Positions 23,799-53,402 of a stretch of 64,000 nt of DNA are shown in pieces. Both the position numbers and the translations under genes were made by a program. This DNA comes from Rusavskia elegans (lineage: Eukaryota > Ascomycota > Lecanoromycetes > Teloschistales > Teloschistaceae), in contig SAUG01000041.1 in assembly GCA_011316305.1 (NCBI GenBank), positions 1 to 64,000 of the forward strand, in the 5' to 3' direction. Positions within the stretch are counted from its first letter, which is position 1, and each line of letters opens with the position of its first letter. Below the pieces are notes generated by a model, which had not been told where the DNA came from, did not search any database, and saw nothing but the letters and a program-made list of their open reading frames with translations.

Positions 23799-24250
23799 TA
23801 TTATAAATACGAACAGTATATTTTAAAAAATATAGTAGTATTTAGTATAATACTAGATTTTCTATTATATTTCGATAGATAAAAATATATAAACAATCTA
23901 GATATTAGTATTAAAGAATATTTTAGTAGTTTTAGTAAATAAATATAATAAATACTTTAACTTTAGTAGTTTTAGTAAATAAATATTCTAAAATAACGTT
24001 ACTTTAGTTATTTTAGTCTATATATTATTTAAATAGTGGAAAATTTTATTTATCTATATAGATCCCGAACTCGACGCCTTTATAACTTATATTTAATTTA
24101 TTAGTTATCGTTATATACTGCTCTAGCAATCAGACTAATTTATTCTTAATTTAATTTAAGTAACTATCCGTTATACCTCGGTTTATAGATATACTAATAA
24201 GTCCAACCGACTTTTAATAGATACCAGAATTCTCGAATAGCTTTATAATA
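23799..24250 (+). repeat. 3' LTR, Gypsy A copy 1
   Basis: Same length as the 5' copy, more strongly RIP-mutated at its left end. Confidence 0.9.
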
Positions 24251-24255
24251 CGATC

Positions 24256-24781
24256 TCGCTTAAAGTTAATTGAATAGGTCTAAATTGATAAACGGGTCTG
24301 ATATTATATCCTGTCTAGCGCGTTATAAAAGCGCTTATAAGCAAGCCTTCTACTTATAAGTAAGATTTTAGCTTATAAGCGCCCTGAGCGCTTTAAACGA
24401 GTTTTGAAATTTTTAAAAAAAAATCTTTTAAAAACTCTAAGTCTCTCTATCTAGTAGGGCTACTAGTATCCTATAAAATATCTTTACTAGTAAACTTTTA
24501 GCGTAGATTTCAAAAATTTTATTTATAGAACGCTAGCGTTGCTAGTTTTTGAACTAGAGACTTCCCGTTATTAAACGGGAGCTAACGGGTACTAAACCTT
24601 AAAAAGTTTAATTTTAAAATTCTAAATATAGATAAAATAGACATTTTTAGAATATATCTAAATTTTTTTGTTTACTAAACAAGATAATCTTGCTTAAACC
24701 GGTTCAAACCGGTTCAAACCGGCTCAATCGACTCTGAACGCTTTTTTTATTTTAAAATGCTATAAGCGGGTTATATATTTG
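24256..24781. other. Short less-mutated island between two Gypsy elements
   Basis: About 525 bp unlike either neighbour. It keeps CpA/TpG far more than the flanking elements. It has inverted AGCGCTTATAAGC-type motifs (about 24330-24385), a triple near-repeat of GGTTCAAACC (about 24695-24730), and a long A/T-rich middle. With both Gypsy elements removed it lies within the Copia interior, so it may be a small non-autonomous element inserted there. No coding capacity is seen. Confidence 0.5.
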
Positions 24782-25271
24782 TATTATAGAACTATTTGAA
24801 AGTCTGGTATTTCTAAAAGTTGGTTAGATTTATTAGTATATCTATAAACGGAGATATAATAAGTAATTATTTAAATTAATTTAAAAATAAATTAATTTAA
24901 TTACTAGAATAGTATATAGCGATAGATAATAAATTAAATATAAACTATAAAGGTATCGAGTTCGGAATCTATATAAATAAATAAAATCCTCTATTATTTA
25001 GATTATTTATAAATTAAAATAATTAAACTTACTCTATTTTAGAGTATTTATTTACTAAAACTATTATAACTTAAATATTTATAGTATTTACTTACTAAAA
25101 CTACTAAAATTAAAGTATTTATAGTATTTATTTATTAAAATCGCTATAATACTCTTTAATATTAATATCTAGACTATCTATATATCTTTACCTATTAAAA
25201 TATAATAGAAAATCTAGCGCTATATTAAATATTATTATATTTTCTAAAATATATTATCCGTATTTATAATA
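24782..25271 (-). repeat. 3' LTR, Gypsy A copy 2
   Basis: Reverse complement of the family A LTR. Starts TATTATAGAAC. Confidence 0.9.
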
Positions 25272-28200
25272 CTAGATCTTTTTTTTAGATTTTTTATTTT
25301 AAAAAACCTTCTATCCTTCTTTTTTATAGATAAAAAAAAAAGATTATTAATTAAAGATTATTATAAAAAAGTTCTATTACTAGATATCGGTATATTAGCT
25401 ATACGTTTTTATTAGAATTATTTCTAATTAAAGAAATTTTATTATATTAATAAAGGTTCCGAAAAGTATATTAGTTATATAAAATAAATTTATTTTTATA
25501 ACTTTTTTTCTATTAAATATTATATATTAGCGTCGTTTAAAAAATAAATATAAAAAATTAAAAAGAGAATTATATAAAGTATATATAAAATAATAACGTT
25601 TACTTTATTAATTAGATTATATTTAAGAAAAATAGCGTATTATAGTTAATAGAAAGCTATAAAATATTAAAAAATTAGAATAAAAAAAAGGTTTTATAGA
25701 TCCTTTTCTATTTATTAATCTAGATTTTTTTATTAACGTAGCTTCCGAATAGATTATACTATCTATTAATTTTAACTAGTTAATTACTTTTTTAGTTCCT
25801 TTTAATAGAACTATTATAAAGCCTTTTAGTAGTTTATTAAATATTTTTTAGGTCTCTAAATATTTTCCGAAATAGAGTAATCTTTCTATTTAATTAAATA
25901 GTTCTATCCTTTTTATAATAGGATCTTTTTAACTATAAAAATATCTTTTTTCTATATTTTAGAATTAAATATCTATTATAATAGTATTTCGAAATCGGCT
26001 AGTTCTAAAAGAAATATATAAAATACCGGATATATTTTAATATTTTTAGATAAATTAAATTTAAAATTCTAAAGTCCTTTAATTTCTTTAATTAAAAATA
26101 GTCCGACTTTAATATAATTAAATTTTTTATTTAAAGTCTTTATTTTTAGGTTTTTTATAAAAAGGTATATTTTATTTTCTTTCTTTAACTAAAGTACTAT
26201 TTTTTATTTTTTATTTTAATAAATATCTAAATACTTCTATATTTTTAGAATATTTCTATAGATTTTTTTCTAAATTTTAATTTTTTAAATTATTAACTCC
26301 GCTTATTTATATAGTAGCGGTTATCTAAATAAATTCGAATTTTTTCTATTATCGGCGAAGAATAGTAATTTTTTTATCGTATTTAATTTTTTTATATTAA
26401 ACGCTAGGTATATTATTAGTAGTAGCGAAATCTAATTATTTTAAATACTATCAATATAATATTTTAGATACTATTTTAAAATCTGATTAGTATATTTCGT
26501 CTATCTATCTATTATAGACTGGCTGTCGGGTTAAAAAATTCTATAGTTCGATCCGAATCGAATTTCGAATCGAATTATATAACCCGATCCGATCCGACTA
26601 ACTCGTTAAATCTATATAAATTATATAACTCTTGTATAAAAATTATACGAATTATTTAAAAACTTCTAATTAATTAACTACGCTAGCTAGAAAGATTCTA
26701 ATTAGATTAAATATATTAGTTTAATATATTATCTATAATAAAAATTTAAAAATATTATATATATAGATTTATTATATATATAAAAGGTTTAGCGGATACC
26801 CGAATTCGATCCGCCAAAATCGGATCGGATTTCCGACGGTTCGACGGAAATCCGACCCGAAATGGCTAGTCTAATCTATTATCGGATAGAAAACTATTTA
26901 TATTTTTAACTTTATACTAAATATAGAAATAAAGATTTTCTAATAATTTAAAGTAAAGAATTTATTTCTATTATTTATTAATATTTTTAGTAATCTATAG
27001 TATCGGAATAATCGATCTAGAATAATAAATTTAAATTATTTTACTATAAAGTCTTTTTATAATAGGATTATATAAATATATTTCGTAAATCTCTCTATTA
27101 TATTAAATATCGAATCGTATTCTATATTTATTATTAGATTTTTCGATTTTAGAAATTTAATAATAAAGTCTAATATAATTTCTTTCTATAGTAAATCCGA
27201 TAGTTTCTAATATTAAATTTTTTTTTAACGAGTATATATAGTATATTTATTTTACTAATAATTAAAATTTTTTTTTTTATATATTTCGATATATTATTTT
27301 ATATTAGAAAACTGGTAATATTATTATAAAAGTTATATTATTTTTATTACGCCTAGATATTTTTATAGTATTCTATTATAATATTTCTTAATATATTTAT
27401 CGATTTTATCGATTTTATCGTCTAATATTTATAGTTTTCTTTTTTAATAAAAAATTATTTCTAGTTGTTTCTAAATATATATAGCGTTATATTTATTTTA
27501 TACTAACTTATTAATAATAATCTATTTTTATTAATTTTAAAAATACTATTATTTAAAACTACTTTTTTTTTTATATAATTATTTCTTCGATTTAAAATAT
27601 CTATTTTTCTATTTTTTTTATCTAGAATATAGTATATTTTAAATTTATATTAACCGAAGAATTTAGATTATCGTATTTATTTTCTATTAAATTATTTTAT
27701 TATTATAAAATATAGAAGATTTTTATAATCTTTCGGTATATACTTTCTATTATTCTAATATAGCTATTATAACTAGTAGTTTTTAATTATAGATATTATA
27801 ATTCTATTTTATTAGTAATAAATTTTTTAATATATATATTACCGGGTACTATATACTATTATATTATTATAGAAGATATATATTTATAACGAGATCTAAT
27901 AAATCTATTTTTATTTTTAATAGTTTTTTTAAATCGAATATTTTAAATACTAGATCTTTTATATATTCTTTTTTAAAATCTTCGAATATTTATTTTTTTT
28001 CTTTTTTTCTAATACTATTCGACGGTATCTTTTATTTAAACTATTAAAACGAGATTTTTTTAGAATAGTTTTTTATAAACTTTTAATTATAGTTTATAAA
28101 TCCGAAGAAATTTTAGATTTTTTTAATATTTATTAGTATTTTCTATTCTATAAAAGCTTTTAATTTACTAGTATTAATATATAGTCTATTATATTCTATA

Positions 28201-31200
28201 ATAAATCCTAGAAAGTTTATTTCTTTTTTATAGAATTTATATTTTTTTAATTTAAAATATAAAATCTTTTCTTTCTAGATATTTAAAAACTTTACTAATA
28301 AATTATTTATATCTTTTAAATATTTTAAAAAAAACTAAAATATTTTTAAAGTAGATAATAATAAATATATCGAAATATTTTCTAAATATATTATTAATTA
28401 TATTTTAATAAGTTACCGGAATATTTATAAATTTATATAATATAATTATATATTTATTATAACTATATTATATTTAGAAAACTATTTTCTATTTTTTTTT
28501 AGCTTTTATTTATATAAAATTATATATTTTTTAAAAGTCGAATTTTATAAAATATTTTATTTTAGAAAATCTATTTTAAAATTTATTAATATTTAATAAT
28601 AGATATCTATTTATAATTATAATATTATTTAACTTCCGATAATTAATATATAAACGGAATATTCTATCCTTTTTAAATATAAAAAGGATCGGATATTCTA
28701 CTAGTAATTAAAATTTTCTAATAAATTTCTTTTTTATATTTTTATCTAGATATTTACGGAATATTTCGAACTCTATTATAAATAATAGATAGATAGGTCT
28801 AAATATAGATTATTTATCTAGTTTAAATCTGATTTTATAATTTTATAGTTAATATTTAAATAGTATTTTTATAGTTACTTTTTTCCGAAATAAATATATC
28901 TAATTTTTATATTTATCTAGAATCTTTTCTAATAGATTTTTTTTTTAATTTCTTATTAGATAATATAGAGTTTTTAAAAGATTTATAATTTTTTTTTCTA
29001 TTTCTATTTTATTAATCTAGCTAATTTCTGCCGGTATCTAATAAATCGGACCTAAATAGTTTTTAATTATTATTTTTCGAAGCTATAAATTTATACTTTA
29101 TATTCTATTTTTTATCTATCCGAAATCTCTATTTTAACGTAGGCTAGATACTTTCTATATAGAAGTATTATTTAAAGCTAAATTTTTTTTTTTACTAATC
29201 TATTACTAGATTATAATCCTTTAACTAAAGAATTTTAAATATAATTTTTTAACTAGCTATCCGAATAATATCGAACTAAAGTTTCTTTTAATATTAATTA
29301 ATAATTATTTAAAATAGTATTATTATTTTTTATTATCTTTCTATTTCTATTCGGTATTTTATTTCTATCTATAACTATTAAATTATATAGATCTTTCTTT
29401 TTAGTTCGAAAGAATATTTTTCTTTTAGTTAAATCTTCTAATATGAAATTTCCGGTTATATTTAAATTAATAAATATTTTAACCTTCTATAATCTATTAT
29501 TAATTTCGATAATAATATTAATTTCGAGTATATATATATATAGCTAGCTAAATTTAGTTATTTTTTTCGAACTATAAAGTTATATATTTATAATATATTT
29601 ATTACTATAAAATTTTATCTTTTTCCGAATTATTATTTATATTTTTATATTTCTAGTTTTAATAATCTATTTATAAAATATATCTATAGAGTTTCTAATT
29701 AAAGATTCTAATTTCTTTCTACTAATTTCTCTAGTATTTATATCTACTATATATAATATATCCGGAATAATTATAAATATTATAATTTCCGATTTTAATA
29801 GATATAATAGAAATATATCGGCGTAGTTCTAATAGATACTATCTAGCTTCTTTCTTTTCTAATTCGTAGATCTCGTAGTTATTATTATAGTAAATAGTTT
29901 AACTAAATAGTATATATTAATTTTTTATTATTACGTTTTATTATTATAGTATCGGTTTAGAAATAATTTTATTTTTAATAACGTTACTTTCTAGTTCTTT
30001 TTATAATATATCGACGATATTATTTACTTTTTAATCCTATTTATTATTTTATAGGTATTCGTCGCTAATATATATTTTATAAATATTTTTAAATTTTTTA
30101 TAGATTATTATAAATTCCTTTTTTACTATTTTCTTATTATAAAAAGCCTAAAGATACGTTTATCGAATATCTTCTATTATAGTTATCTATCTAGAAGCGG
30201 CTTTCCTTCTAGTTAGTTTCTTTAATATTTATAGTAAAGCGTTATTTATCGTAGCTTCCTATAGTACTTTATCGTTTTCTATAAATATAAATTCTTTATC
30301 CAAACTGGTTTTCTAGAGTTTAAAACTACTATTATCGTCTTCTAAAATTATTTTATACCAGTTTTTAGAATTATTCTTTAGCGTAGTATTAAACTATCGT
30401 CGTTATACTTTATTTAATTAATACTTTCCCGCGAAATAGTCTAGTTTACTATAGTTATAGTATATCTTAGAATTTTTATTTCTTTTACTACTTCTAGAGT
30501 TTTTCTCTTTATATCGCTATTATATAAAGTCTAGTTCTATTAGTATCGGTCTAAAATAGCTACCTTCGGACTATTTTTTATTTAAATACTATCTTTTATA
30601 GAATTATTTCGAATAATATCCCGTATTACCTCGTAGTCTACTATTATAACGTTTTTCTATATCTCGTTTATATAGTTTATTATCGAGGTTAATAGATATT
30701 TTAATTAGATTATCTAGTATATTATATACTCGACTATCGCGTATAAATTCGTCTTTTATTTATTTTTTAAATTTTTATCTAAATATTATATATAGAGCGT
30801 CGTTATTCTATTCTATTAGTAGTACCTATTCTTTAAACCGTATAACGTAGTTAAATACTATATTTTTTTACTAAAAATATTAAATAAAATATTTAATAGT
30901 TTAAATTTTATTTAAAATTCTAAAAATTTTATAAATAGTTTTTTTAAATTTTATAAATTATATAAAGATACGTTTATTATCTTTATTAATATCTATATAC
31001 TAATAAAAGAAAGGTTTTATCTAATATTAGACTCGTCCTTAAAAGTAGAATATAGCGAAGAATATTTTCTTTTTTTTAGATATAGAATAGAATATAAAGT
31101 ATATATCTAATTATATAAGCTAATCTTTTAATTAATTATAATTTCTATAATATTTATCGGATTTATTAATTTAAATACTATAAAAATATAAATTAGTAGA

Positions 31201-31341
31201 AAGATTACTTTTATTTTTACTATTATCTTTTATTTAGATTTCCTTTTCTTTAAATTCGGACTATTTAGTTATATAGCTAGAATTACTTAAAGTAGAGATT
31301 TAATATTAAATCTGCGATAGATATTTTAAAGATATTTAAAG

Positions 31342-31831
31342 TATTATAAAGCTATCTAGAAATCTAGTATATTTAAAATTTAATTAAATTTATTAGTATA
31401 TCTATAAACGGAGGTATAACGGGTAATTATTTAATTTATTTTAAAAGTAAATTAGTTTAATTACTAGAGTAGTATATTACGATAACTAATAAATTAAATA
31501 TAAGCTATAAAAACGTCGAGTTCGAAATCTATATAAATAAATAAAATCCTCTACTATTTAGATAATTTATAAATAAAAATAACTAAACTAGCTCTATTTT
31601 AGAGTACTTATTTACTAAAACTACTAGAATTAGAATATTTATAATATTTACTTACTAATACTAACAAAATTAAAGTATTTATAGTATTTATTTACTAAAA
31701 CTGCTAAAATACTCTTTAGTACTAATATCTAGGCCGTCTATATATCTTTACCTATTAAAGCGTAATAGAAAATCTAGCGCTGTACTAAATACTTCCGTGT
31801 TTTCTGAAATACGCCGCCCGTATTTATAACA
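31342..31831 (-). repeat. 5' LTR, Gypsy A copy 2
   Basis: Reverse-complement LTR. Its right end TATTTATAACA still shows the original TGTTATAAATA terminus when read on the minus strand. Confidence 0.9.
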
Positions 31832-31836
31832 ATTTG

Positions 31837-33942
31837 CTGATACTTCGAAGTATTTAAAGATTCCTTTATAGCCGCTGACGTAATAGACGGTTCTAGAGTT
31901 AAAATAATAGTAGTAGCTTTCGCGCTAGCGTAAATCGGCGAGGTATTTTTTAATATTTTTTTTTCGAGTTCGACTTCCGGGTACCGAGCGGTATTAATAA
32001 CTATAAACTCGATTTTTTCGATATCTAAAACGAACCTAATATTAGCGGAAATATTTTAAAATTTATTATTTAAAGGTTTATCTTCTTTCTATCTTTTATT
32101 AGCTTTATTTATTTTAATAAATATAGTTTTTCGTTTTTTAATATATATAGGCGGTTCAATATTATCTATTTTCTAATATTTTTTTATAAAATATCCGAAG
32201 ATTTTATAGAAATTATATTAAGCTTTAGTTCGAACTTTAGTAAATACTTTACGTATTTCTTCTAGCGCCGCCGATTTAGAATCTATATTAGCGATATTAG
32301 TATAGATAGAAGACGTTAACTAATAATTAGATAAAGTATAGCCGGGAAAATAGGACGTAATTACTTTATAGATAGAGATATAGAAGCTACGGACTTTAGC
32401 TTTAAATTCGACTTCGGTAGCTTTATTAATTAGAGTCTATTAGTCTATTTTATTACTAATAGTAATAAAATCTCGATCAGAAATAAAAAAATATTCGGTA
32501 AAATTATTAATAAAGTAAAAGTTTATTTTCTATTTCCGAAGTATATAGTCCGGATAGATAGGTACTAGTTCGATATTATATCGATAGAGTTTAGCGGTAA
32601 AGTCGTAAATATCTTTCGAAGTTTTAAAAGTAGTACCTCGAAGAAATATATAAATTTCGGCGATATAGAAATTACTTTTTCGAGTAAAACGGCGCTTAAG
32701 CTTTTCTATTATTTTAAAAGCTATAGATAGATTATCGAGGGATTAACGAGCCTTATACTCGACGTTACTAAAAATAAAGGCCCTAATAGTACTTTAGATT
32801 TTAGTCTATTATCTGGTTTAGAGGTTCGTAGCTACTATACGGGTACTAATCGCCTAAAGAGGGTTTTTATTAATAATTAAAAGTTAATAGCCTATAATCT
32901 AGATAGCTATTTCAATATCGGTAAACTAGGCCTAGAAATTATAGCTGCCTTTAAGCTTATAGATTTCTTTAAAGAGGCTAAAGGCCGTAGATACGAGGGA
33001 AGAGATCGGTACTTCGAAATCTATTACTAAATTATAGCGATAACGGTAATAACGAGATTTATTCTAATACGACGCGTACTAGATAGAGAAATTTTAGTAA
33101 TATAAAAAAGTAGTAGATAAATCTAATAGAGAAGATTTTTAGAACTCTATCGGCGTAGATATACTCTTTTCTATAATTACTGCCTTCCCGTTTCTAGACT
33201 TTATATTAGCTATACTAGCTATGCCAGGTTCCGATATAAATATCTATCTAGCCGAGCTCCTAGCTTTAAATCTTCTAGTCTCCCTGTTTCGGATAATATT
33301 AGAATCTAAATTACTAGAAAACTCGTTTAACGTCTGTTTATTCGTTACTACTAGTTTATTAGAAGGCGGGAAAATAGTAGAAAAAACTGGTTTAATCCGG
33401 TTTATCCGTTCGATATCTAGAAGAAAATCTAATAGTTTAATAATATAAAAAAATTTAGATTTTAAAATAATATCTATAGCTTTATTACCTTTACCTATAA
33501 TATAGGTAAACTTTAGAAATAGCTTGATTAAAGCTGTTTATAAAAGATTTTAAATAGTATTAATTGCGGATAAAATTGTAATATTTATAGTAGATATCTA
33601 GCTAAAATTTAAAGGTAATAGATTAATAAAATATCTAGAAGTTTACTCTATAATAATTAATAATACGATATTAAAATAAGGTTTTTTCTAATATCGTTAG
33701 CGAGGTATCGATATATTTTTTTTTAATAGATAATAAATCGTAAATTCTATATAATTCTTTATCCGATCTAACTATAGTACGCCTAGAACTCGATAGGTCT
33801 AAGTAATTAAGACTTTAACTATAGATAGATCCAAGTAGTAGAGGCTTTAACTATAGTACGCTTGGAATTTAATAAATCTAAGCGGCGAAAGCGAATTAGA
33901 ATATAGAGGTTAATAATTTGGTAAGCTACTGGGCTTATAACC
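31837..33942 (-). other. Copia 5' internal remnant
   Basis: The part of the nested Copia interior next to its 5' LTR. Heavily mutated. A 75-codon open frame at 33221-33448 lies on the strand opposite to the element and is treated as chance. Confidence 0.7.
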
Positions 33943-34081
33943 TATTAAAAGGAATCTATTATCTATTAAACTATCTAGGGGGTAGAGCGCCTATTTATAT
34001 ACAGGAGTATACTGGTAGCTGGCACCTGGACCTACCTGGAAGGAGGTTGGGGCATGACGAGTTCGCTATTGGCTCATAACA
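33943..34081 (-). repeat. 5' LTR of nested Copia (right copy)
   Basis: Partner of 16950-17088. Here the inner (left) end is mutated (TATTAAAAGGAATC) and the outer right end is intact (GAGGTTGGGGCATGACGAG), ending TAACA. The two copies together show the unmutated LTR. Confidence 0.9.
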
Positions 34082-34385: not shown

Positions 34386-35515
34386 TCACACCATTCCCAG
34401 CGCGCGCTCATGCTCGCACCTCGTTCCAGGACACCGCGCCGGATCAGGTTTGTAACCCTTGAACTCACTCACCCTATTCGGTCGAGGGGGCTTGGGAGTA
34501 TATTGCGGACGATTGGGGTGGTGTGCCGCATGATTAGTTTCAAATGCTTCTACAACAGTCCGACATGATTAGCTTCTCGACTGCCCCCTTCAATTCCAAG
34601 TCTAGGGGCTGTGAAGTGTTGCTTACGGAGATTCCTATCGCGTTTGGCTATCAGTGATTGGATAGCACGACGAAGCTTGCAGACTGGGGCGCCGCCGCAG
34701 TCGAAGTGGTGTTCTTTTGGTTTGGGTTGGGGATTGGGGTGAGGAGCTTGGGGTTTGGGGTGTTTGGGTTTGGGCTTGCTGGGTTGGACTTCGCGGTGGT
34801 GTTGTTTGTCTTGAGGGCTCGGAAGATCTGTAGGGAGGAATGGGTAAGCTCTGGAGTTATGCTAGTAGTCAGGTTCAATGAAGATACTCACCAGGTATAG
34901 CATCACGCTTGCCGCCCTCAGTCATCGGATGTCCGTCCAATTTCGTATCATGGTAGCAGTCCTTTGTCTTGATATTGTTCTTGATACAGTAGTCAAGCTC
35001 GTCAGCTGTGAAACGTGACCTATCTTTCTCGTAATCCCTAAATCCAAGTCGACGTAAGGGCTCTAAAGCGCTCATAGATTAGCTCTGCGACCTTCCTCGA
35101 TACGAGTAACTCGAATTACTGACCTGGAAGGCTATCGCGCTTGCTATGCTCGATCAGATCTCTATCCGGATGGTGTTCGAGATGGGCCGCCACTTCATGC
35201 TTGCAATCCTTCAACTTAACTCCATTCTCCACACAGTAGGTCAATTCGTCCTTTGATATGGTTGTGGGGATGGGTTCTGTAAAAACAATCAATCAGTCCT
35301 GAGGTTTTGAATCATGAAAGCAAGATGAGAAAACTGACCGTGTAGAGCGTCTCGCTTGAGTCCCAAGGAATTGAACGCACGACGGAGCATGCACATGGCC
35401 GTACCGCACTTCTGGGGTTTTGTTTGGGAGTGGGATGGAAGTGTTTCTGATCTTGCGTCGAGAGTGTTCGGTGGCTCCTTGTCTCCGAAACCGTCGGCGA
35501 AGGGCGATGGGTCGT
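34386..35515 (-). other. Polyprotein exons 23-27: paired 2-Cys modules (types C and D)
   Basis: Exons 24 and 25 share E-L-x-Y-C-x-x-N-x-(V/I)-K-x-K-D-C-x-H (type C). Exons 23 and 26 share (K/D)-C-G-x-A-x-(M/V)-C-x-L-R-R-A (type D), and the last exon has a looser C-P-G-T-R-C-E-H-E-R-A-L. Tails are L-K-R-D-A-L-H-G, S-K-R-D-S-L-P-G, G-K-R-D-A-I-P-G and A-K-R-D-R-N-L. The exon order D-C-C-D suggests a local duplication history. Exon 26 also has a Pro/Lys-rich spacer. Confidence 0.78.
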
Positions 35516-38500
35516 CTTTGAAGTCGTCAATTCAGAGTTTGGACAAAGCTTTTGGCTGCCGTGGTAGTACTCACCTGGAATCACATCGTGTTCAACAGTT
35601 CCAGTATCTTCGAACAGATTGCCAGCTGCAGTCTCTTCAAGACGCTTTCCGTGCTGCTTTCCAATCTTATTGGCCAATTTCTTAATCGCTTCGGACTTGA
35701 TGCCCGGGAGTGTATTTGCATCGTTGCTAGTTGGTTGGGGTACTGGATCTGTACGCTCCTCAAGGCGATTTCTCTTCTGCTTTGCTACCTTACCTGCCCA
35801 CTTCTTGATCGCTTCCGACTTGATACCCGGAAGTAGAGTTGCATCATTTCCGGCTGGCTTGGGCACTGGATCTGTACGTTCCTGGAAGCGGATCGTAGAA
35901 GCTGAGGAGCGCCGTAAATCAGCTACATGCCTGGTGCTTGCTGTAACGAACGATTAAAAGCTTACTATCTCTGATTTTGTCTTTGATATCGCGGTTTCCA
36001 AGGGACAAGGTATCGGATGAGTTGTCATCTATGGATTTTTAGTACTGAAAACTTGAGAGAACAACAAAGCATCTGATCTCGTTGTTAGGAAAATGCTGCG
36101 ACTCACCCGTTAATATGTTCCGCACTACATTCGTCCCTGGACGAACCATTTCGTCAGTATCACATCATCTGGCAAACACACAATGTTGGTAGGGGCGATC
36201 AGTGATCTCGTGTACTGACCTCTGTCGCAGATAAGTTCCTTCATACGGCAACTATTTCGCGGAGTTGGGATACAACCAGGCTTCAAAAATTTGGATTCTT
36301 TGGTACCCCATCTCAAATTTTTGCAAGGTGACGCTGGACTGTTGTTCGCTGTTATGAGACCTGTCGCCGAATTAGTCCTGGTGTCAATAGCAAGAAGTCT
36401 GCTGCTTACCGGGTGGGGCGCGTTCTTTGATGTCTGTCTGCCGTTAGTCTTACATATTTGGGGTAAGTCTGCGACAGCACGTACCAGCTCTAGAAGCCGG
36501 AAAGGTGAAAGTCGGAATCTGGGATGTCGTTGAAGTCCGGAACGTGGTCGGCGAAGGATCGATACCTGATTTCGAAGCCGTGGCGTTGGCAGGCGGCGGT
36601 ATGAGCAGACCAGGGGCATCGAGTTGAATCTGCCCATCGATGACATAGCAGTTCGGGAGGCACGTTGGTGGCGAAGATTTCTGCGCGTTGTCTTCAGTCA
36701 GATCCATAACCCAGGGTAAAATATCCAGGCAACAGGGGACATACATCGAATCTGCAGAAGTCCTTGCACTTCAGGTAGTTCAAGGTGACATCTGACGAAG
36801 GGACCGAACTTGAATTAGCTGACATGCCATACTCCACGGCTGCGGGCAAGTCTCGTTTATCCACTTTTGGGTCTGGTTTTATGCCTGTCGGTAATCAGCA
36901 CCCTGAAAATGACAGCGACTGCTCAAGGGAACTGGGATGACAACGTGAAACCCAACTCACCGACCAAAGCAGCACGTTCTTTCATATGGCCTAAATATTG
37001 ATCAGCCCCAGCCCATTGGAAAGAGAGTAATAATGTTTTCAGGTCCACCTTTAAATTCTTTGCAACGCGTTCGAGGACTTCCTTCCGCCCAGCTTATGTA
37101 CGTTCCACCCGGGCACGAATGCTTGGGATCCATACCCCCTCCAGGCTCAGCAGTGGCTTCTGTAGGGAATAACATCAGCACATTATCCATAGCTGAAAGC
37201 GACAATAATTGCGACTTACCAGCTACAGCAGAACGACCTATCAAGTGGCCTAAGTTGGAGTCAGCATGGCCACAACAGAAGAAGGACCGATTTTTGGGAC
37301 TCACTAGGAACAAAAGCGCGTTCTTCGATGTCACCTACGCAGCATCAATGTCAAATAAATCGAGATCTCAAGGCCAACAAACGTACGCTTTAGGATGCAA
37401 ACCGTCTTCATTTTTGGTCTCATGCAATCGTCGTGCGGGCCTATGTTGCAATTCTCGTTGACATATTTGTCAATGCAGTCTTTTCCCGGTCTGGGCTGAC
37501 ATCCTATTATTGTCTTCGGGACTTCCATCGTACCATGTGGGCAGCCTTTCGGGCCATAATTTTCGGAAGTGCCTGCTGATGTATTAGTATTCGAGGTACA
37601 AGCGGACAATGATATCGAGGCTTTAGAGCTTACCAGATAATGCGGCGCGTCTTACAACATTGATGGCTTTTGGTCCGGCGTCAAGTTCTGCACAAGCGTC
37701 AGCGTCACATATTTTCCTAAAGCAGCATACCTCATGCAATCTTTTAACAATTGCGGAGATGAATCTCACCAGGGATGATATTGCGCTTCTGTGGGCATTG
37801 TTCCAGGCTGTAACATTGCCAGAAGAGCTCTGTGGTGGTGGTGATGCCGCCTGGGAAAGCCAAAGCCATACATTTGATCGACGAGGGAGATGACCAGTCA
37901 ACGCGAACGAAGCAACATTTGTCAGGTGCTGGTTCACGAAGAATGGCCTTGGGGAGCTTTCTTGCTTTTTCGAAAACAAGCTTCATGTCTTGGAAAACCA
38001 TGGTTGAACAGCCAGAATCATACTTATTCCCATACCCGAGCGTTGGGTATATGGGTTCTGCAAGGATTCAGCGCTTCAGCGCTGATCTAGACGGATCTAA
38101 GATTCAATAAGCAGTGGGGAAGTACTGACCAGGGATAGCATCTCGCTTCGTACGGCATGGTCCTATGATGTAGCACCCCAGGAAGAGCTCTTTACTGAAT
38201 ACATACTTCAACCTTGCACAAGTATTTGCGGTTAACTGCTTGGTCCAACAACAACCGGGGCTTGCCCAAAAGTTATCTTGCCCGCGTTGAGCAGCTCCTT
38301 TGTATTCAAGATATCGATCGTCGCTCCAAACATCATGCCAGCAAGCCGGACGGGGTGCCCTACTTTTCTCTATTGAAGCTGGGCATTCCTAGACGTCAGC
38401 TTCTCCACTGCTTGCAGGTCCAGTAGTAACGATAGCACTCACCAGCCACTCTACTACGCTTCATTGGGCAGTTCTTGACTTCGTAGCAGTTGTGGAAAGC

Positions 38501-40660
38501 CGACACTTTAAAGTCTTCCTTCAGATCCTGGAGTTCCTTGCGGCAATCACGTGTGTTGCCACGAAGCACCCAGCATTGATGGCCTGGCAAGTCCTCGTCT
38601 GAAATGATCTCTTGGCCAGCTCTGGCTGCTTCTTGAACTACCGTGTTGGGGTTTTGCGGAGCATAGGCTGGAAAGCTTATTTGACGTGGTCGAAGTTCAG
38701 ACGTGCCGGGTACAGGGTCTGGGATGAGCTCTGCAACACCGTCAGCTCCCGTCGAAGCTTCGAGCTCAGAAGTGAAAAGAGGATGGTCGGTCTCTGCAAT
38801 CCTCTCTGTAGTAGAGTCAGTTTCCACTACGACAGTAAAGCCAATGCAAATGCAGAAAAGAACAAGGAAAGAAGACATGTCTAACCAAGTAAAGCTCCCC
38901 GCTTGCGACTGCTTTTCGGCGGGCAGTCGCCCTCGGAATAGCAATAAAAGAAGACGTCCCAATCGAAACCAGCTTTGCTTCTCAACGGCACGCAAATATC
39001 CAGGGAATCCTTTCGAACGAGCCAGCATCGTCCGCGTACACTGTGGACAACCGGTTTTCCTGACATGGCTTCATCTTTTTCGATTGCATCATCCCCCACA
39101 AATATGCTGTCGGGTGGTTCTAAAGAACAGTTGGGAAATTTTCTTGTTGGGGTAGAAGGAAAATACTGTACTTACGATGCTTCTTTTTCGGATCTGCCTT
39201 GGGGAATGGTTCTGCAATGATAGGTCAGCTGCCAAACGACTCCTAGTCTCGTCCCGAACCTCGGGAGGGTCCAGTGAAGGCTGGGGTAGGGAAAAAGAAG
39301 AAAGCCAAGGGAATGCGGTTGCTCACCAGGGTTCGCTTTACGTTTCTCCAGGCCCTTGATGTGGTTACCGGCATTGGACCCTATTCTCCATCAGCATTTC
39401 CTCGAAGCTCCTCGGAAGAAGACAGTTAAGCAAACATAGAAAGCAAGTCAGGATGAAGGGTGAATATTCTGAATTTTGTCATCGTTTTTCGTCATATTCG
39501 GTAGCTGTTTGGCTCCAATTCTCTACCGATGGGATGCCTATCTCCAGTAATCCCGTGCCAGGTCAGAGACCCAAGAAAAGCGGCAGGCAATAGTCTTCGG
39601 AGCATAGTAGGTGTCATAGCAAGTAACGGAAGATATCAAGAGAGGGAAGAGGCAGAGAGAGCCTAATGAGGAGGGGATTGGGTGAACCAAGATATCAAGA
39701 AATGTCATAAAAGCGACGAAGATAATATTTAAAATGATGTTCAACGAAACAGCAACGCACGAACTTACCAGCCAAAACATTGCGTACTTCAAGGTCATCG
39801 ACATTGCCAAATCCCGTGTCTCGTCCTGGCCAAGTGGTCAGGATATGTAGGAATAAAAAAAATACATGACAATCAACAGCCGTATCTGACATGCGGCTTT
39901 GAGCCACTGGCTCCCCTAATCTTGCCGTGCAGCAAAAGATGTGCTTTACAAAGCCATCTGCAGAATACGCCAATGACGGTCGACAGGAAATACTTGTACC
40001 AATAAACGATAATGGGAAGGAATGCAAAAAGGCCAGATCATGATGGGGAAGGTCAAACAAGTGAAGAAGATAATAAAAGTCTGTTCAGACAGCAACAAAC
40101 TTACCATCGACCGCCTCTTCTTCCTCAGCGTCTTCGTCGCCGTCTGCGTTCTCATCGTCCTCGGGGGAGAAAGTGCTCTTCATATCCCCGCGTTCGACAT
40201 TGGAGGTCTTCTCGGCGCGGGTTCCAATATTGTTGCCGGGAGGGAAATCGCAACAGATCGCGCCATGATCGCCCCAGCTGCAAAGTCCCCAAGGTCCACA
40301 GTATGACTCCGAGCGTTCGAGGATTTCTTTGCCGAGCAGGGCAGGCCCATTGCGCTTGACGACGGTGGTCTCTTCGTCACGAGTTCCGATGTTGTTGCCG
40401 GGAGGAAAATCGCAACAGATCGGGCCATGGTCTCCCCAGCTGCAAAGGCCCCAGGGCCCACAGTAAGACTCGGAGCGTTCAAGGATTTCATGGTCGAGCA
40501 GAGCGGGCCCCTTGCGCTTAAGGACTAAGACAATTGATGAGCATCGACCGTATTAGAGACTGAGTAGGGAATGCTTACCGTCAACAGGGAGAGCAGCGCC
40601 GGCTATGCCATGGATGGCAAGAGCGGCAGTGCCGATGATGATGGTCAAGGACTTCATCAT
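34386..40660 (-). CDS. 27-exon secreted polyprotein of Cys-rich modules with Lys-Arg cleavage sites
   Basis: Manual splicing gives 1336 residues. Exons run 40660-40579, 40524-40105, 39825-39769, 39380-39327, 39211-39176, 39119-38886, 38805-38443, 38378-38130, 38057-37770, 37687-37634, 37572-37387, 37334-37305, 37249-37220, 37159-37049, 36990-36961, 36884-36745, 36680-36485, 36433-36410, 36360-36220, 36136-36107, 36028-35966, 35901-35575, 35515-35339, 35276-35124, 35062-34892, 34827-34627, 34549-34386. Twenty-five introns are phase 1, one phase 0; total length is a multiple of three. Residues 1-24 form a signal peptide (M-M-K-S-L-T-I-I-I-G-T-A-A-L-A). At least 15 Lys-Arg sites separate modules with 2 to 6 Cys. 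Most exons end in R-x-x-x-(P/A)-G with the Gly codon split. This suggests processing by a Kex2-type protease after secretion. Exon 3 could start at 39957 instead, the 389-nt intron before exon 4 may hide an exon, and a two-gene split at 38881 is possible. I recognise no family. Confidence 0.82.
35575..35901 (-). repeat. Polyprotein exon 22: tandem 41-residue Cys-free units
   Basis: Two consecutive units (about 35881-35759 and 35758-35636) begin E-R-T-D-P-V-P and contain L-P-G-I-K-S-E-A-I-K-K. They end in basic runs (K-Q-K-R-N-R-L-E and Q-H-G-K-R-L-E). Lys-rich and probably helical, they differ from the Cys modules and could be released as cationic peptides. Confidence 0.8.
36220..37687 (-). 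other. Polyprotein exons 10-19: mixed Cys modules and tiny linker exons
   Basis: Larger Cys exons alternate with exons of only 24-54 nt that carry a basic site: V-V-R-R-A-A-L-S-G (exon 10), D-I-E-E-R-A-F-V-P (12), H-L-I-G-R-S-A-V-A-G (13), H-M-K-E-R-A-A-L-V-G (15) and D-I-K-E-R-A-P-P-G (18). Exon 11 has six Cys plus the spliced L-K-R, exon 14 two Cys, exons 16-17 two Cys each after D-K-R-D, and exon 19 four Cys. The shared (D/H)-x-K/E-E-R-A pattern of the tiny exons suggests they descend from one linker exon. Confidence 0.7.
37770..39119 (-). other. Polyprotein exons 6-9: four related 4-Cys modules (type B)
   Basis: Exons 6, 7, 8 and 9 each carry a module of form C-W/C-F..., a second Cys, then x-C-Y-x(3-4)-C-(P/R) followed by a dibasic site: F-Y-C-Y-S-E-G-D-C-P with R-K-R; H-N-C-Y-E-V-K-N-C-P with M-K-R; L-G-C-Y-I-I-G-P-C-R with T-K-R; and W-Q-C-Y-S-L-E-Q-C-P with Q-K-R. 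The four exons are spaced as separate phase-1 units, as expected from exon duplication. Sequence outside the Cys is strongly diverged. Confidence 0.75.
40196..40519 (-). repeat. Tandem 162-nt coding duplication in exon 2 (type A modules)
   Basis: Two 54-codon units (40519-40358 and 40357-40196). Each reads K-R-x-G-P-A-L-L, then E-I-L-E-R, then a 32-residue peptide starting S-E-S-Y-C-G-P-W-G-L-C-S-W-G-D-H-G and continuing I-C-C-D-F-P-P-G-N-N to G-T-R. Cys spacing is C-x5-C-x8-C-C. Basic sites bracket the peptide (K-R, E-R, T-R). In the 32-codon core, 12 codons differ silently and one changes Pro to Ala, so the peptide is under strong constraint. An acidic spacer (E-D-D-E-N-A-D-G-D-E-D-A-E-E-E-E) follows. 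Confidence 0.92.
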
Positions 40661-48069: not shown

Positions 48070-50220
48070 GAAGATTGATGTAACGGAGAACACCAAACAC
48101 GCAATGCAGCTGCAAATGCAAGACAACCAATCAACGGATAATAATGAAGTTCCAATGGACAAGGATGATGATGAAAAGTGATGGTGGTGGTTGATGGTTG
48201 ATGAACGAAGTCTCAATGGGGAGGTAGGTGGGAGTTGGAGTGTTAGCGAGGAGGAAGGAGACGAGAAAGAAACCGAGGGGAAATCGGGCAGGTTTTAATG
48301 TTCGGAGGGACAGGGGACTGCTGCGTGATCGACCAATCAGCGCGGGGTACTGCACACTGCGGCACACTTTCCTCCTGCCCTTCTACAATAATTCCGCTTG
48401 CCTTATTTTTCTTCCCTCATTACCATGCTTTCTGCCACTTGCTCTTCGTTTTCTATCGACCATTGGGACAAACACCACCGTCTGTACTACCGCCAAGAAA
48501 CCCGTTTTGGCTAGCCGGGAGCAAGTACTAAACCTCTTTAGTCCATTATCATCATTCGCCTGAGGGATGCAGGCCCTCATTGCACTTCACAAATCGTTGC
48601 TTTACATGCATCATGATCTTCAGGCGTCCTAGCATTTTAGTGCGAGCCCGCTCCTCAGCAAGATCCATGTCGCGCTTCTCTACAAGACTGTCGTTGTGGT
48701 CGGAGAGACGTGGATCGAATGTCTCGGCGACCCTGGGCGCTACGCTATGGCGATAGAAGGCATCAGCACTGGCAAAGGGTCAATCACAGATACCAGGGTT
48801 GCCCCTCTTCACATGGTAGGTACTTGATTTCTAAGAAAGCAAAAACACTGCGCCGTCATTTCAAGACGGTCACTGCCATCAAGTCGTTCTACTTTTGTAT
48901 TGTTTTCGTCATTGACCTGCACTACAGTTGTCATCGCGAACATCCAACCCGATAATCCGTCCATGCTGTTATAAAACTCACCAATTCGAAGCTAAGCTAC
49001 TGCTGCGCGTGAACGAGAAGGAACGTACCACTTGCCAATCTTATGAGACTTGCGGAGACAATCTGACCCTGCTATTCCTCTTCTCTATTATTTGCCCATT
49101 TGTAACCCTGTTCCCACTCTGGCGTTATATCTGGATAGAATGGTCGGTCGGGGTATTGAGTGCCCTGCGCGCCAGCTCGAGGGACGGATGATTGACGGCG
49201 TCAATTTCGGACTCATAATCCTCCCTTTGATGAAATGTTACGGCGCTCTGCAATCATACTCAGTAGTCGACATGAAACCCTGACACAGATACTCCTGTCT
49301 CAACTACCTATCGACGCCTAACTTTGCTCCCATCTGAAGTCGTCACTGAACCAAACCCTTGATTCACAAAAGCATAGATATCAGTCGATTTTTCCACTAG
49401 TCATTGTGACCACATTCACGAATCCGATGGAGTTTTTTTCTCCATTCCCCATCTTCATAACGCTCAACCTATAATATAGTACAGATGAAGGTTACTCCTC
49501 CATACTCCAATTCAACCCATTGCACTTCGATTGAGCAGCTGGTCCTAATCCTACGAACCGGTCCGGTTGCCGACCATGGATGCTCGGAGAATCTAAAGTA
49601 ATAGATTCGAAGAAGCTTAGATTCGGTCGATCCTCGGGGAGGCTAGACTTTGGAGAGCGTTTTTCGGGGGATAAGACTTGGCCACTGGGAGCAGAATACC
49701 TGGTATGTTGCTGCCCGCTGATCTGCTCGTATTTTTTCACGTACGGAAAAAATCTAGCCCCGGATATTCATCGGAGAAAGCCATTCCCTTCAGGGACATT
49801 TTCAGGACGAGCTCTTGTGATGGGCAGCATGACACTTTTGTAAGCTGCTGCCTGTCATCGATGACCGTGGAGGAAGTGTTCGATCATAAAAGCTTAACTC
49901 CGGTCAATTCAGATTTAGCGTCTGGCAGTTTTATACCTGGTTAAGTCCCCTTGCAACCTTGTTCTTGTAGCATTCATTTTGTGCCAGGCGACGATTATGA
50001 CCTTATTATTTATTCCCTGCGAGCCCCGGATTGCGAGGTTCCTTGTCAGTAACGGACTACCTCAAGTCTGCATGTCGAGGCTCGCAATTTAGGGTGCAGC
50101 CTCTCACAATGCTCAACGAGAGGTGTGGTGGGCTGAGCACAGCCTTGCCCTGGGTGCACGCCAACCCACTGCTGTAGGGCCTATCTCCTCCTGCTTACAA
50201 CCATATCTTGCATCGACAAG
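48070..50220. other. 2 kb spacer, possible unresolved gene on minus strand
   Basis: No complete gene model could be built. The part 48552-48768 is reported separately as a possible last exon. Around 49040-49080 the minus strand has another short coding-like piece (R-K-S-H-K-I-G-K-W) before a GTACGT donor. The rest shows nothing. Confidence 0.4.
48552..48768 (-). CDS. Possible terminal exon of an unresolved gene
   Basis: After a CCAG acceptor (48769-48772, with a TTGAC branch-like site) the minus strand stays open for 72 codons: A-D-A-F-Y-R-H-S-V-A-P, then F-D-P-R-L-S-D-H-N-D-S, then K-R-D-M-D-L-A-E-E-R-A-R-T-K-M-L and a tail ending G-L-H-P-S-G-E before TGA at 48552. It is charged and helical with good codon flow. 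I could not join it to upstream exons in a consistent frame. No family recognised. Confidence 0.3.
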
Positions 50221-51177
50221 ATGGCAGAAGCTCTAAGTCTTGCCGCTGGCGTGATTGGTGTGCTTACGGCGGCTGGTCAAATCTCATCCCTTCTACTTCA
50301 ATTCACCAAGAGCTCCAAAGATGCACCGCAAACAGCTTGTATCGTTCGTTCCGAGGTGGATGATATGAGCGGCGTCCTTTTGCACCTTCAGTCCTTCTTG
50401 TTAGGCGATGAATCCTCTGACCGGTCAAGGACACAGCTGCTACAAGTGGATCAAGTTGTCGCAATAATGACAGGATGCGTTGATACTTTCTCAGAATTGG
50501 AACAGCTGCTGGATCGATTAACAGTAACAGGTGGGGAAACGAAGGGCATGAATATCCTGGATCGTGCCAAATGGGCAAGAAAGGAAAAAGCGATCTCCAA
50601 TCTGATCCAGAGGCTGCAGAATCACAAAGCATCTTTATCACTGATTCTCAACGTGCTGAATGGGTACGTCTACTATTCTAGTTTAGTCCAACCTCACTTA
50701 CTAAAAATTTCCAGTAATACCATTGTGGAAGCTAAAGCGTCCGTCGACCGACTACATGGCATGATCGAGCGCTGTTATAAAGAGATGTCCTCCCGGATGA
50801 ACAAATTGGAGCTCCGCGAGTTGCGACGGTCCAGTGAGCTTCCAGTAGATGCCTACAACCATGGTGATGCATCTTCGATCATGACAACGGAAGGTCCCTC
50901 TACCAGTTCTACGTTGCCAGAACCCGCCTCAAACCCATCCAAAGAGAATATTCTATGTGATTTTACGGAAACTCTTCGGAAGTCCTGGGTCTACCTAAGA
51001 AACAATGCTCTTAACTCGTCACGATGTTCCGTTTACTCGAAAGATCACTGCTCAATGACATGGTCTTGTCTGTCCGGTTTAAGTTGGGCGGAGGTCTCCA
51101 ATATCTCTGTCATCGAGCTCCCTGTCATGCTCGATGAAGTCTACAAAGGATCAGATCCTACGAGAGTATCATCCTGA
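50221..51177 (+). CDS. Stand-alone fungal STAND N-terminal domain protein
   Basis: ATG at 50221. Removing a 51-nt intron (50664-50714; GTACGT, TTACTAA branch, CCAG) gives 301 residues. The start M-A-E-A-L-S-L-A-A-G-V-I-G-V-L-T-A-A-G-Q-I and the following heptad-rich helices match the N-terminal domain placed before NACHT/NB-ARC and ankyrin repeats in fungal STAND (NLR-like) proteins. The C-terminal piece S-G-L-S-W-A-E-V-S-N-I-S-V-I-E-L-P-V also belongs to that family. No P-loop or repeat region follows, so this is a short form. Such proteins act in non-self recognition or remain uncharacterised. The HET gene 0.6 kb downstream on the same strand fits that theme. Confidence 0.8.
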   Translation: MAEALSLAAGVIGVLTAAGQISSLLLQFTKSSKDAPQTACIVRSEVDDMSGVLLHLQSFLLGDESSDRSRTQLLQVDQVVAIMTGCVDTFSELEQLLDRLTVTGGETKGMNILDRAKWARKEKAISNLIQRLQNHKASLSLILNVLNGYVYYSSLVQPHLLKISSNTIVEAKASVDRLHGMIERCYKEMSSRMNKLELRELRRSSELPVDAYNHGDASSIMTTEGPSTSSTLPEPASNPSKENILCDFTETLRKSWVYLRNNALNSSRCSVYSKDHCSMTWSCLSGLSWAEVSNISVIELPVMLDEVYKGSDPTRVSS

Positions 51178-51735
51178 CGGTACTCGTAGGTCAGAGGATC
51201 TCTGCAGGTGAAGTGAATAGGAGTCAAGATTCGAGGCAGAGGAGTTCGTCCCCTACAGATAGATCATAGCGCCGGTGTTACATCGGGGAAGCTGAACCTT
51301 CTCGCACATTAGATTGTGAGATAGTCTCCATCCCGCTGGCAGCAATACACCTGGTCTGTTGTATGTCTGAATTCTCCACCGCTGATGAGCGTTGCGCTGC
51401 GAACAAAGGTCCTGTATATTGCAGGACCATTACGTGAGGCATCGTAAGTACACTGAACAGCCAGTCTCTCACAGGCACTCCATCATCACGTCAACGTGCA
51501 GCCGCCATGCAGGCTTGGCGCAAGGCTGGAAGGCTGCCACCGTTGGAAGGATCGTCCGGCAATGATTCTCCACATAGAGGATACATCCTGTCTCGCTATT
51601 TCCTTAGAGAACACCGTCCTTTGATCATCCGAAAAGCAGCTGCTTCGATCGCGAGTCATACGCCAGTCTGCTATCTCCGGGTCCAACATATCCATATCAC
51701 ACCATCGAAGACCAAATTGAAAAATCTTCGCTAGG
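51178..51735. other. Spacer/promoter upstream of HET gene
   Basis: No supported gene. Short frames occur on both strands without motifs. Confidence 0.4.
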
Positions 51736-53402
51736 ATGCGGCTGTTGAATACTCAGACGCTTGAATTTGTCGAAATTGTCCGTCCAGAACAAACCGTGTA
51801 TGCAATCCTGTCCCATACATGGGGCGAGGAGGAAGTTAGTCTCGAGGATTTCCATAAGCCTGAGTCGAAGCGGCTTCAGGGCTACAAGAAGATCGAGCGC
51901 TGCTGTGATCGGGCGCGCCGCGGTGGATTTCGCTATGTTTGGATCGATACCTGCTGTATCGATAAGAAGAGCAGTGCCGAGTTGTCCGAGGCAATCAACT
52001 CCATGTACAACTGGTACTACCAGGCAAGGCGGTGTTATGTGTACCTCAGCGACTTTTCCCTTCATACCGAAGACGTATTGGAGCGGAGCAGATGGTTCAC
52101 CAGGGGCTGGACGCTTCAGGAATTGTTAGCTTCTTCCCAGGTACACTTTTATGATCGGCAATGGCGTTACATTGGCAACAAGCAGTACCTAGAAGGTCAG
52201 ATTTCTGTTCTCTGTGGGATCGGGAAAGAGTATATCCAAGACAGAGAAAGCGTACGCACAGCAAGTGTAGCAGCCCGGATGTCATGGGCTTCAGACAGAG
52301 AGACGAGTCGACCAGAGGACGAGGCTTATTGCTTGATGGGCCTCTTCGATGTGAATATGCCGCTGCTCTACGGGGAAGGAAGGGTCAAGGCATTTCGGAG
52401 ACTTCAGCACGAAATCGCTAAGAATTCCGAGGATGAATCACTTTTCGCGTGGCACAGTGTTGGCTCCGACCTGTCTCTTGGCGTATTTGCTCCATATCCG
52501 GCAGCTTTCCGAGGGTGTGGCGACATCGAGCCAGTTCAGAGCCCTACAATACGAAGACAGCCATACAGCATCACTAACAGGGGGCTATCGATAGATGCTA
52601 CTTACCAGAGGATCTCGTGGGAGGATTTCCAATATCGTCCTCGCTGGTTAGACCATGATCAGCAGCCGAATTTCTTCTTCTTCCTCTGAAATGTGCACGC
52701 AAATTTTGTCGAAAACATTCAAACACAGAATGGAGAGATGATGACGATGATGAAAGATTAATCACGATCATTCTCACGTCTGTTCTAGACGGTCCTGAGG
52801 ACGCATTCGTTAGATGGCTCCCGAGTGAGATCATGGTGTACGAGAAATACTTCCAACCTGATGAAGAGCTTCTTCGCCGCAATATCTTCATCCAGCCTCC
52901 CGCGTCTCGCATGCTACTACCCTCCACCTCGTATGCAACCCGTGTATCCATCAGCACTGCTATGATCAGCACATCGCACAGTACGACATTGCTTAGATCT
53001 GAAGAATGGCGTCAGTGGTATGTGACACCACCAGGTTTCATTGGCGAAACAGAGCTCGGCATCACTCAATGCCGAATATATTTCAGAGGTTTCACTGGGT
53101 TTGCAGTACTTCAATTTCATTTTCCGCGGACATACTTCGTCATCCTTACACATGTATTCACCGTGAGCAACAAGAGGACGGTTACCCTGAGTCTCCACGA
53201 AGATTCCTCGGAGCTAGAGGCAGTAGTGGAATCCTGCTATAGGCAACGGGAACTGCTCAACGTTATCCCAGACGGCTGGGCAGAGGTACCACTGCAAGTC
53301 GATAAAGATCATTCCGTTGTCCTGGAAAGGACCTGGCATGGCGACTATTACCTGGAACTCCTCGATCATACACCCCCAACCCCTGAGATGACGTTAGAGT
53401 GA
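51736..53402 (+). pseudogene. HET-domain (heterokaryon incompatibility) gene with one frameshift
   Basis: The first frame (51736-52689) carries the HET domain: A-I-L-S-H-T-W-G (23-30), Y-V-W-I-D-T-C-C-I-D (67-76), R-R-C-Y-V-Y-L-S-D and W-F-T-R-G-W-T-L-Q-E-L-L-A (120-132), plus E-D-E-A-Y-C-L-M-G-L-F and L-L-Y-G-E-G-R. A second frame takes over near 52655-52665 with E-F-L-L-L-P-L-K-C-A-R. It stays open through D-D-E-R-L-I-T-I-I-L and R-R-N-I-F-I to the TGA at 53402, the normal C-terminal half of such proteins. The switch is a single-base slip, not an intron. HET proteins trigger cell death after fusion of unlike strains, and broken alleles are common. A truncated HET domain alone might still be made. 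Confidence 0.85.

Follow-up and report, generated by a model that had tools for sequence, protein, structure and literature searches.

Can a single fungal gene carry a whole set of different disulfide peptides, to be cut from one secreted chain? This question is raised by the minus strand of positions 40660 to 34386 in a 64,000-nucleotide stretch from the ascomycete Rusavskia elegans (the window; the first 64 kb of contig C157, SAUG01000041.1, 134,282 bp, of the 44.16-Mb, 217-contig assembly GCA_011316305.1), in which an earlier note had described a 27-exon gene for a secreted chain of cysteine modules separated by lysine-arginine (KR) sites. We find that the locus 34386..40660 is a protein-coding gene, and its features make it likely that the product is a secreted polyprotein from which Kex2 cleavage and Ste13 trimming would free disulfide peptides belonging to at least five kinds. 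The secreted chain of Cys modules with KR separators was recognized again in our analysis, the signal peptide being clear by eye in exon 1.

Independent splicing of the minus strand, from the ATG at 40660 to the stop at 34386, reproduced the 27 exons, 1336 residues and 15 KR sites given before, in a product with 54 Cys and no internal stop. The single intron phase that had been claimed throughout held for 25 of the 26 introns, which are phase 1; the intron 36744-36681 is phase 0. The lengths of 23 of the 25 internal exons are divisible by three, and keeping any one intron unspliced disrupts the frame for 25 of the 26 introns. The model was supported by a spliced-ORF (open reading frame) dynamic program (DP) run on 34-41 kb, which recognises splice donors, acceptors and branch points and has neither protein motifs nor a phase preference built in. 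It picked ATG 40660 unaided and reached a score of 251.3 with 27 introns, compared with a mean of 30.1 and a maximum of 51.8 for 30 dinucleotide shuffles, 49.3 for the matching stretch of the plus strand, and at most 126.8 for both strands of seven other 7-kb stretches, two of them overlapping (14 strand/regions). Its introns fell into phases 0/1/2 as 1/23/3, against 31/34/43 summed over the shuffles. This automatic model was identical to a first curated model in 19 of the latter's 26 exons; the seven that did not match comprised four exons between 39.8 and 38.9 kb, two between 37.16 and 36.96 kb, and the final one, and none of exons 4 to 6 was exact. In the first curated model the last exon was read through to 34550; this was replaced by the splice 34626-34550, which was preferred because it keeps phase 1, an arginine rule described below and an even Cys count, a choice that partly leans on the motif, as the tests on the automatic model do not.

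Internal duplications and one relative elsewhere in the genome allowed selection to be estimated as the ratio of non-synonymous to synonymous substitution rates (Ka/Ks). The ratio was 0.11 for the two units of exon 2 (53 codons; 18.0 synonymous and 10.0 non-synonymous changes) and 0.22 for the two units of exon 22 (36 codons), both pairs being under purifying selection; it was 0.21 for the core shared by exons 23 and 26 (16 codons) and 0.07 for exon 17 compared with the relative on contig C6 (23 codons), while in the core shared by exons 24 and 25 (18 codons) synonymous sites were saturated. These low values therefore indicate coding and constraint, beyond mere open frames.

The relative was found in a search of the fungus's own genome, in which exons 16-17 matched C6:166311-166574 (E 6e-7; 47% identity over 85 residues). 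It belongs to a stand-alone, secreted-type protein with a signal-peptide-like start and a Ser/Thr-rich region, followed by the CxxxC...CxxxC module, and in each copy nine residues separate the second Cys from the third. By eye, it also has a phase-0 intron at the matching position, which provides independent support for the sole phase-0 intron of our model and suggests that at least this module may share descent with a stand-alone secreted protein. Among the best candidates, the only ones scored, the full-length query gave no other credible relative in the genome, and queries with exons 1-2, 8-9 and 24-25 gave none elsewhere in it; a match on C38 (E 0.02) was a Pro-rich sequence with five stops and was discarded. 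No Pfam family matched the 26-exon protein at E up to 1, and 10 of the 27 exons searched at E up to 10 gave three matches (E 0.03-0.12), all under cut-offs and not credible. Five exons matched no family in the prokaryotic library NCBIfam, and the PDB sequence search gave no match.

The junctions between exons obey an unusual grammar. Arg stands exactly five residues before the split codon at 15 of the 26 junctions, while all other distances from 1 to 12 give 0 to 3 (nominal p 6e-12); in the automatic model the count is 15 of 27. Within the six residues that follow this Arg, Ala or Pro occupies 23 of 45 even positions and 4 of 45 odd ones (nominal Fisher p 1e-5; 0 of 50,000 within-site permutations), with 19 even and 4 odd in the automatic model. 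Taking all 15 KR sites of the 26-exon protein irrespective of exons, 20 Ala/Pro are even and 6 odd (nominal permutation p 0.0016). The best spacers are KR-KA-NP-EP-FP-KA-DP, R-SA-VA-EA-TA-EP and KR-DA-IP-EP. Such X-Ala/X-Pro dipeptides after a Kex2 site are described as a Ste13 signature (PMC6339444), and we read the Ala/Pro at even positions as the predicted signature of Ste13 trimming following Kex2. The genome contains a single Kex2-type P-domain match and, likewise above cut-off, a single match of the DPPIV/Ste13 type. Of the five occurrences in the 44-Mb genome of a 24-base pattern for a KR..[x]LP-type exon end at a donor (KR..PG/GTNAG, the slash marking the exon end), four are at this locus, and the reversed control has none. 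The fifth, C21:419504, was judged by eye to be due to chance, no further exon of this kind being present in the part of the stretch inspected. Because the junctions lie inside the spacers and are nearly always phase 1, most exons would be cassettes suited to frame-safe duplication, loss or skipping.

About half of these exchangeable cassettes look like carriers of small disulfide peptides. Cutting at KR yields 16 fragments, of which 14 contain Cys, always in even number (2, 4, 6 or 8), a regularity that is supporting but not decisive. The alignments bore out the earlier claim of at least four families of Cys modules in one KR-separated chain. The CW family has four modules, in exons 6 to 9, with invariant Cys, Leu, Phe, Cys-Tyr, Cys and Lys columns, although modules 2 to 4 are only 25-35% identical to the first. 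Further aligned families are CGPWGLC...CC (twice, exon 2), DELxYC (twice, exons 24-25) and CGxxxC-LRRA (twice, exons 23 and 26), and the CxxxC/CxxxC module, present here in one copy, aligned with its relative on C6. Less certain are the GCxPxP modules of exons 11 and 19, which align poorly, and the CPG modules of exons 14 and 27, grouped by eye. The Cys-free cationic units, also foreseen in the earlier note, correspond to the two K-rich units of exon 22. An amphipathic helix in these units failed the shuffle test, the helical moment being no better than that of shuffles (p 0.19-0.43), so that the antimicrobial shading given before finds no support for these units.

We infer from the sequence a course of events in which secretion, disulfides, cleavage, trimming and the function of a mixture each have a part. 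The putative signal peptide would take the chain into the secretory pathway, where each module would fold as its own disulfide unit. Kex2 would cleave after KR, and perhaps also at some of the RR, ER, VR and GR sites, and a Ste13-type dipeptidyl peptidase would then remove X-Ala and X-Pro dipeptides from the new N-termini (DA-IP-EP, for example, and likewise the KA-NP-EP-FP-KA-DP and SA-VA-EA-TA-EP runs). As many as 14 small disulfide fragments, from five or more families, would thus be freed together with the two Cys-free K-rich units, as an extracellular mixture. Its members might be effectors acting on a host, weapons against competitors, or signals; a secreted cocktail is the reading that we prefer.

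Several results weigh against this polyprotein mechanism. The tests of Arg at -5 and of Ala/Pro were framed after the pattern had been seen, and their p-values are nominal for that reason. KR is missing from six of the 15 Arg-at--5 sites, which read VR (twice), ER (twice), GR and RR and would be poorer or less usual Kex2 sites; the NILTDD site has no Ala or Pro at positions 2, 4 or 6, DRNLQA has its only even one at position 6, and four sites carry one at an odd position. The KR count is raised but not extreme (15, compared with a shuffled mean of 6.7 and maximum of 17 in 2000 shuffles of the 26-exon protein), and Cys parity alone is modest, as random cuts leave no odd fragment in 3.4% of trials (0.9% when the Arg-at--5 sites are included). 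AlphaFold predictions were weak, both for the CW module (mean predicted local distance difference test score [pLDDT] 71.7 in one of five models, 41-49 in the others) and for the exon-2 unit (pLDDT 50.4). Foldseek compared the CW model with the PDB and returned 24 matches with a best E of 3.6, many of them Kunitz-type domains, which we did not use. Viral contigs, queried with exon 2 only, and prokaryote contigs, queried with the first 498 residues only, held no relative, as expected. The six non-KR sites would suit a secreted multidomain protein of the wall or matrix whose KR and Ala/Pro motifs are linkers left uncut in vivo. Many animal extracellular proteins made of phase-1 modules are not cut apart. 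Phase-1 module exons like those found here are typical of animal extracellular proteins (PMC8001218). However, the dipeptide parity of Ala/Pro after Arg has no obvious reason in an uncut linker, KR stands ahead of most large module ends, and Cys is even in every Cys-bearing KR fragment, and we consider an uncut protein quite improbable. A signalling precursor, in which one or more peptides are pheromone- or hormone-like and the rest are pro-regions, is suggested by the statement that Ascomycota use Ste13 signatures, as a rule, for alpha pheromones (PMC6339444). Here, by contrast, no unit has more than two near-identical copies, and many unrelated Cys modules share a single chain, which makes this explanation very doubtful. 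Nor was a repeated core of the WCxxxGxxCW type, which we take to be the pheromone core motif, seen by eye in the KR fragments. As for a precursor of ribosomally synthesized and post-translationally modified peptides (RiPPs) of the ustiloxin/dikaritin kind, with cores oxidatively cyclised by UstYa-type proteins, the signal peptide (by eye) and the Kex2 sites would fit. Yet there is no short repeated core, the Cys counts fit disulfides, and UstYa (PF11807) had no match on the whole 134 kb of contig C157 within the sensitivity of the search, extending the previous statement that the window lacks a UstY-type gene; we therefore regard a RiPP precursor as extremely improbable. At least 11 UstYa matches lie on five other contigs (C168, C22, C148, C209 and C73), so the fungus appears to have RiPP-type cyclase candidates away from this locus. 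Finally, the locus adjoins an AT-rich block, starting at about 34.0 kb, that probably was mutated by repeat-induced point mutation (RIP), which would suit a gene in decay or open frames lined up by chance. The DP score, the selection, the Arg rule and the intact 1336-codon frame reduce this to a negligible prospect, and for the modules with low Ka/Ks (exons 2, 17, 22 and 23/26) it is already contradicted.

The extent of the gene was the other matter to be weighed. The weakest links of the chain are its second and third introns (279 and 388 nt, compared with a median of 64 nt), and two donors are poor, GTTAGA at 38885 and the hand-chosen GTGGAC at 37048. What the two long introns join could be two adjacent genes. 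Gene A (40660-40085), of 173 aa, would encode a precursor with two units and the C-terminus VDGKFVAV; gene B would encode the multi-module polyprotein, start at about 39.9-39.4 kb and work by the same cutting and trimming. The DP split, 28.5 for gene A and 222.8 for a chain from ATG 39892, is as good as the fused 251.3, and ATGs that are signal-peptide-like by eye occur at 39892 (MSDTAVDCHVFFLFLHILTTW), 39617 (MTPTMLRRLLPAAFLGSL) and 38878 (MSSFLVLFCICIGF; chain score 201.3). However, exon 2 ends in a consensus GTAAGT donor, after VDG as in exon 1, and a strong branch point and acceptor lie ahead of exon 3 (TATCCTGACCACTTGGCCAG; TATCCTGAC..CAG), splice-site quality that favours fusion. The end of exon 3 obeys the Arg-at--5 rule, the hydrophobic stretch at 39892 and that at 38878 each fall on a pyrimidine-rich intron, and ATG 39617 is not among the starts scoring 150 or more and needs the donor GTAGAG. 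Two genes thus seem unlikely to us, and one gene running from exon 1 to exon 27 probable; exons 4-27 as one unit are safer than the whole chain, despite the weak donors at 38885 and 37048. Two further observations concern starts within introns. The signal-peptide-like sequence at ATG 39617 (MTPTMLRRLLPAAFLGSLTWHGITG) lies within intron 3, and its joining to exon 4 would take that same GTAGAG donor. Intron 6 (38885-38806) contains an ATG and a hydrophobic stretch (MSSFLVLFCICIGFTVVV) in frame with exon 7, either a possible alternative start or a chance feature of a pyrimidine-rich intron.

Among known systems, the closest in working would be a Kex2 polyprotein such as Ece1p, with spacers in the style of pheromone precursors. 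Ece1p of Candida albicans, the candidalysin precursor, has 271 aa and seven KR, one of its eight peptides is the known toxin, and, like the product proposed here, it is a secreted, Kex2-cut precursor of several different KR-separated peptides (PMC12153327). With a product of 1336 aa and 15 KR the present gene differs from that of Ece1p, as it does in its 26 introns, its several families of disulfide-type modules and its Ste13-type spacers. Ascomycete alpha-pheromone precursors share the KR followed by X-Ala/X-Pro for Ste13 (PMC6339444), which is also found here, but they repeat one short core, in contrast to the many different Cys modules of this chain. Kex2-processed repeat proteins (KEPs) have Kex2 sites, small released peptides and a signal peptide, as proposed here, where the signal peptide was judged by eye. 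Their definition calls for at least three tandem repeats, each no shorter than 8 aa, that lie between Kex2 sites and score over 0.6 (PMC7329392); of 1193 KEPs in another study, 77 had two motif types and two had three (PMC6339444), and members that combine two or more repeat types are described as frequent. By the repeat criterion (Umemura 2020) our gene is not a KEP, as no unit occurs in three closely similar copies and closely similar units occur twice. Of the criteria of Le Marquer 2019, four or more fragments at KR/RR are exceeded by the 16 from KR alone, and for a pattern shared by at least three fragments the CW family offers four members of low identity. Rep1 of Ustilago maydis and the ustiloxin and epichloecyclin precursors are also Kex2-cut and secreted but are said to lack Ste13 signatures (PMC6339444). 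DUF3328/UstYa is called indispensable for cyclising the cores of RiPP types (PMC7329392), and by its neighbourhood this gene is not a UstYa-dependent RiPP precursor. In one open library, with subscription papers mostly outside it, we found no fungal precursor that we recognised as having this layout, a weak negative.

The exon structure resembles that of metazoan class 1-1 exon-shuffled extracellular proteins, whose modules lie in symmetric phase-1 exons; this shuffling is treated as restricted to Metazoa (PMC8001218). The phase-1 introns flanking the modules here are of that class, but the host is a fungus, the junctions carry protease-type spacers, and module sharing with another gene was seen, among the queries made, in one case, on C6. 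We tentatively propose, as something short of probable, that fungi too have built a modular secreted gene by duplication and shuffling of symmetric phase-1 exons, with the intron placed in the Kex2/Ste13 spacer and the cocktail varied by splicing as well as by mutation.

Features of the putative polyprotein gene, listed in the order of transcription (a slash marks an exon end)
Feature	Position	Strand	Basis or remark
Exon 1: signal-peptide-like start MMKSLTIIIGTAALAIHGIAGAALPVD	40579..40660	-	Signal peptide assigned by eye
Exon 2: pair of 54-aa units sharing 83% identity, cores C-x5-C-x8-CC; units end in KR and in ER; acidic tail follows	40105..40524	-	Alignment; Ka/Ks 0.11
Exon 3: between long introns (279 and 388 nt); end VRNVLA/G	39769..39825	-	Weakest part of chain
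Exons 4-6 (39380-39327, 39211-39176, 39119-38886): X-Ala/X-Pro run KANPEPFPKADP, then first CW module (4 Cys)	38886..39380	-	Splicing, alignment
Exon 7: second CW module; end KR-SRVA/	38443..38805	-	Alignment
Exon 8: third CW module; end KR-DAIP/	38130..38378	-	Alignment, pattern search
Exon 9: fourth CW module; end KR-NIIP/	37770..38057	-	Alignment, pattern search
Exons 10-11 (37687-37634, 37572-37387): six-Cys GCPHGT...GCxPxP module	37387..37687	-	Poor alignment
Exons 12-15 (37334-37305, 37249-37220, 37159-37049, 36990-36961): three 30-nt cleavage-site mini-exons and two-Cys CPGGT module, spacer SAVAEATAEP	36961..37334	-	Donor 37048 weak, hand-chosen
Exons 16-17 (36884-36745, 36680-36485): CxxxC...CxxxC module split by sole phase-0 intron; relative on C6	36485..36884	-	Genome search, alignment
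Exons 18-21 (36433-36410, 36360-36220, 36136-36107, 36028-35966): short exons and four-Cys GCxPxP module	35966..36433	-	Poor alignment
Exon 22: two Cys-free K-rich GIKSEAIKK units	35575..35901	-	Ka/Ks 0.22
Exon 23: CGxxxC-LRRA module; end KR-DALH/	35339..35515	-	Alignment
Exons 24-25 (35276-35124, 35062-34892): two two-Cys DELxYC modules, 46% identical; ends KR-DSLP/ and KR-DAIP/	34892..35276	-	Alignment, pattern search
Exons 26-27 (34827-34627, 34549-34386): second CGxxxC-LRRA module, last RCPGTRC module, stop	34386..34827	-	Exon 27 preferred over read-through to 34550 by phase and Arg at -5

The gene lies at the edge of a GC-balanced island (34-54 kb), whose border is at about 34.0 kb. AT-rich blocks (15-28% GC) at 1-6000, 18000-34000 and 56000-64000 surround gene islands of 50% GC and are probably RIP-mutated repeats. 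Ten other ORFs of the window were searched against Pfam. Three in the 34-54 kb island matched GNAT acetyltransferase (41.8-42.5 kb), PigL_N and HET; the 6-17 kb island has a short-chain dehydrogenase, a protein with a ubiquitin domain and, below threshold, an F-box. No family matched the remaining four. None of the ten matched a peptidase family, so the earlier claim that the window has none stands for these ORFs, the only ones checked. The PigL_N protein adjoins the HET-domain protein (50137-52689), possibly as an allorecognition pair. A 44-bp tandem repeat in three copies lies near the end of the island (53710-53843), and a tRNA gene at 14189-14287 was found by Rfam and not by ARAGORN, perhaps due to an intron.

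The fungal Kex2 precursors compared here contain either one or a few cores in repeated copies or a small number of short, differing peptides. If our reading is true, the exchangeable exon cassettes of a single gene would encode as many as 14 disulfide fragments, of five kinds or more. Judged by the criteria published for them, KEP and RiPP pipelines, which look for repeats or for neighbouring UstYa genes, would probably overlook such a gene; so, probably, would filters that select small secreted proteins by size. The exon rule, with Arg five residues ahead of a phase-1 junction and Ala/Pro at even positions, can serve as a pattern for searching other fungi, and the finding would bear on the idea of class 1-1 exon shuffling as an animal-only process.

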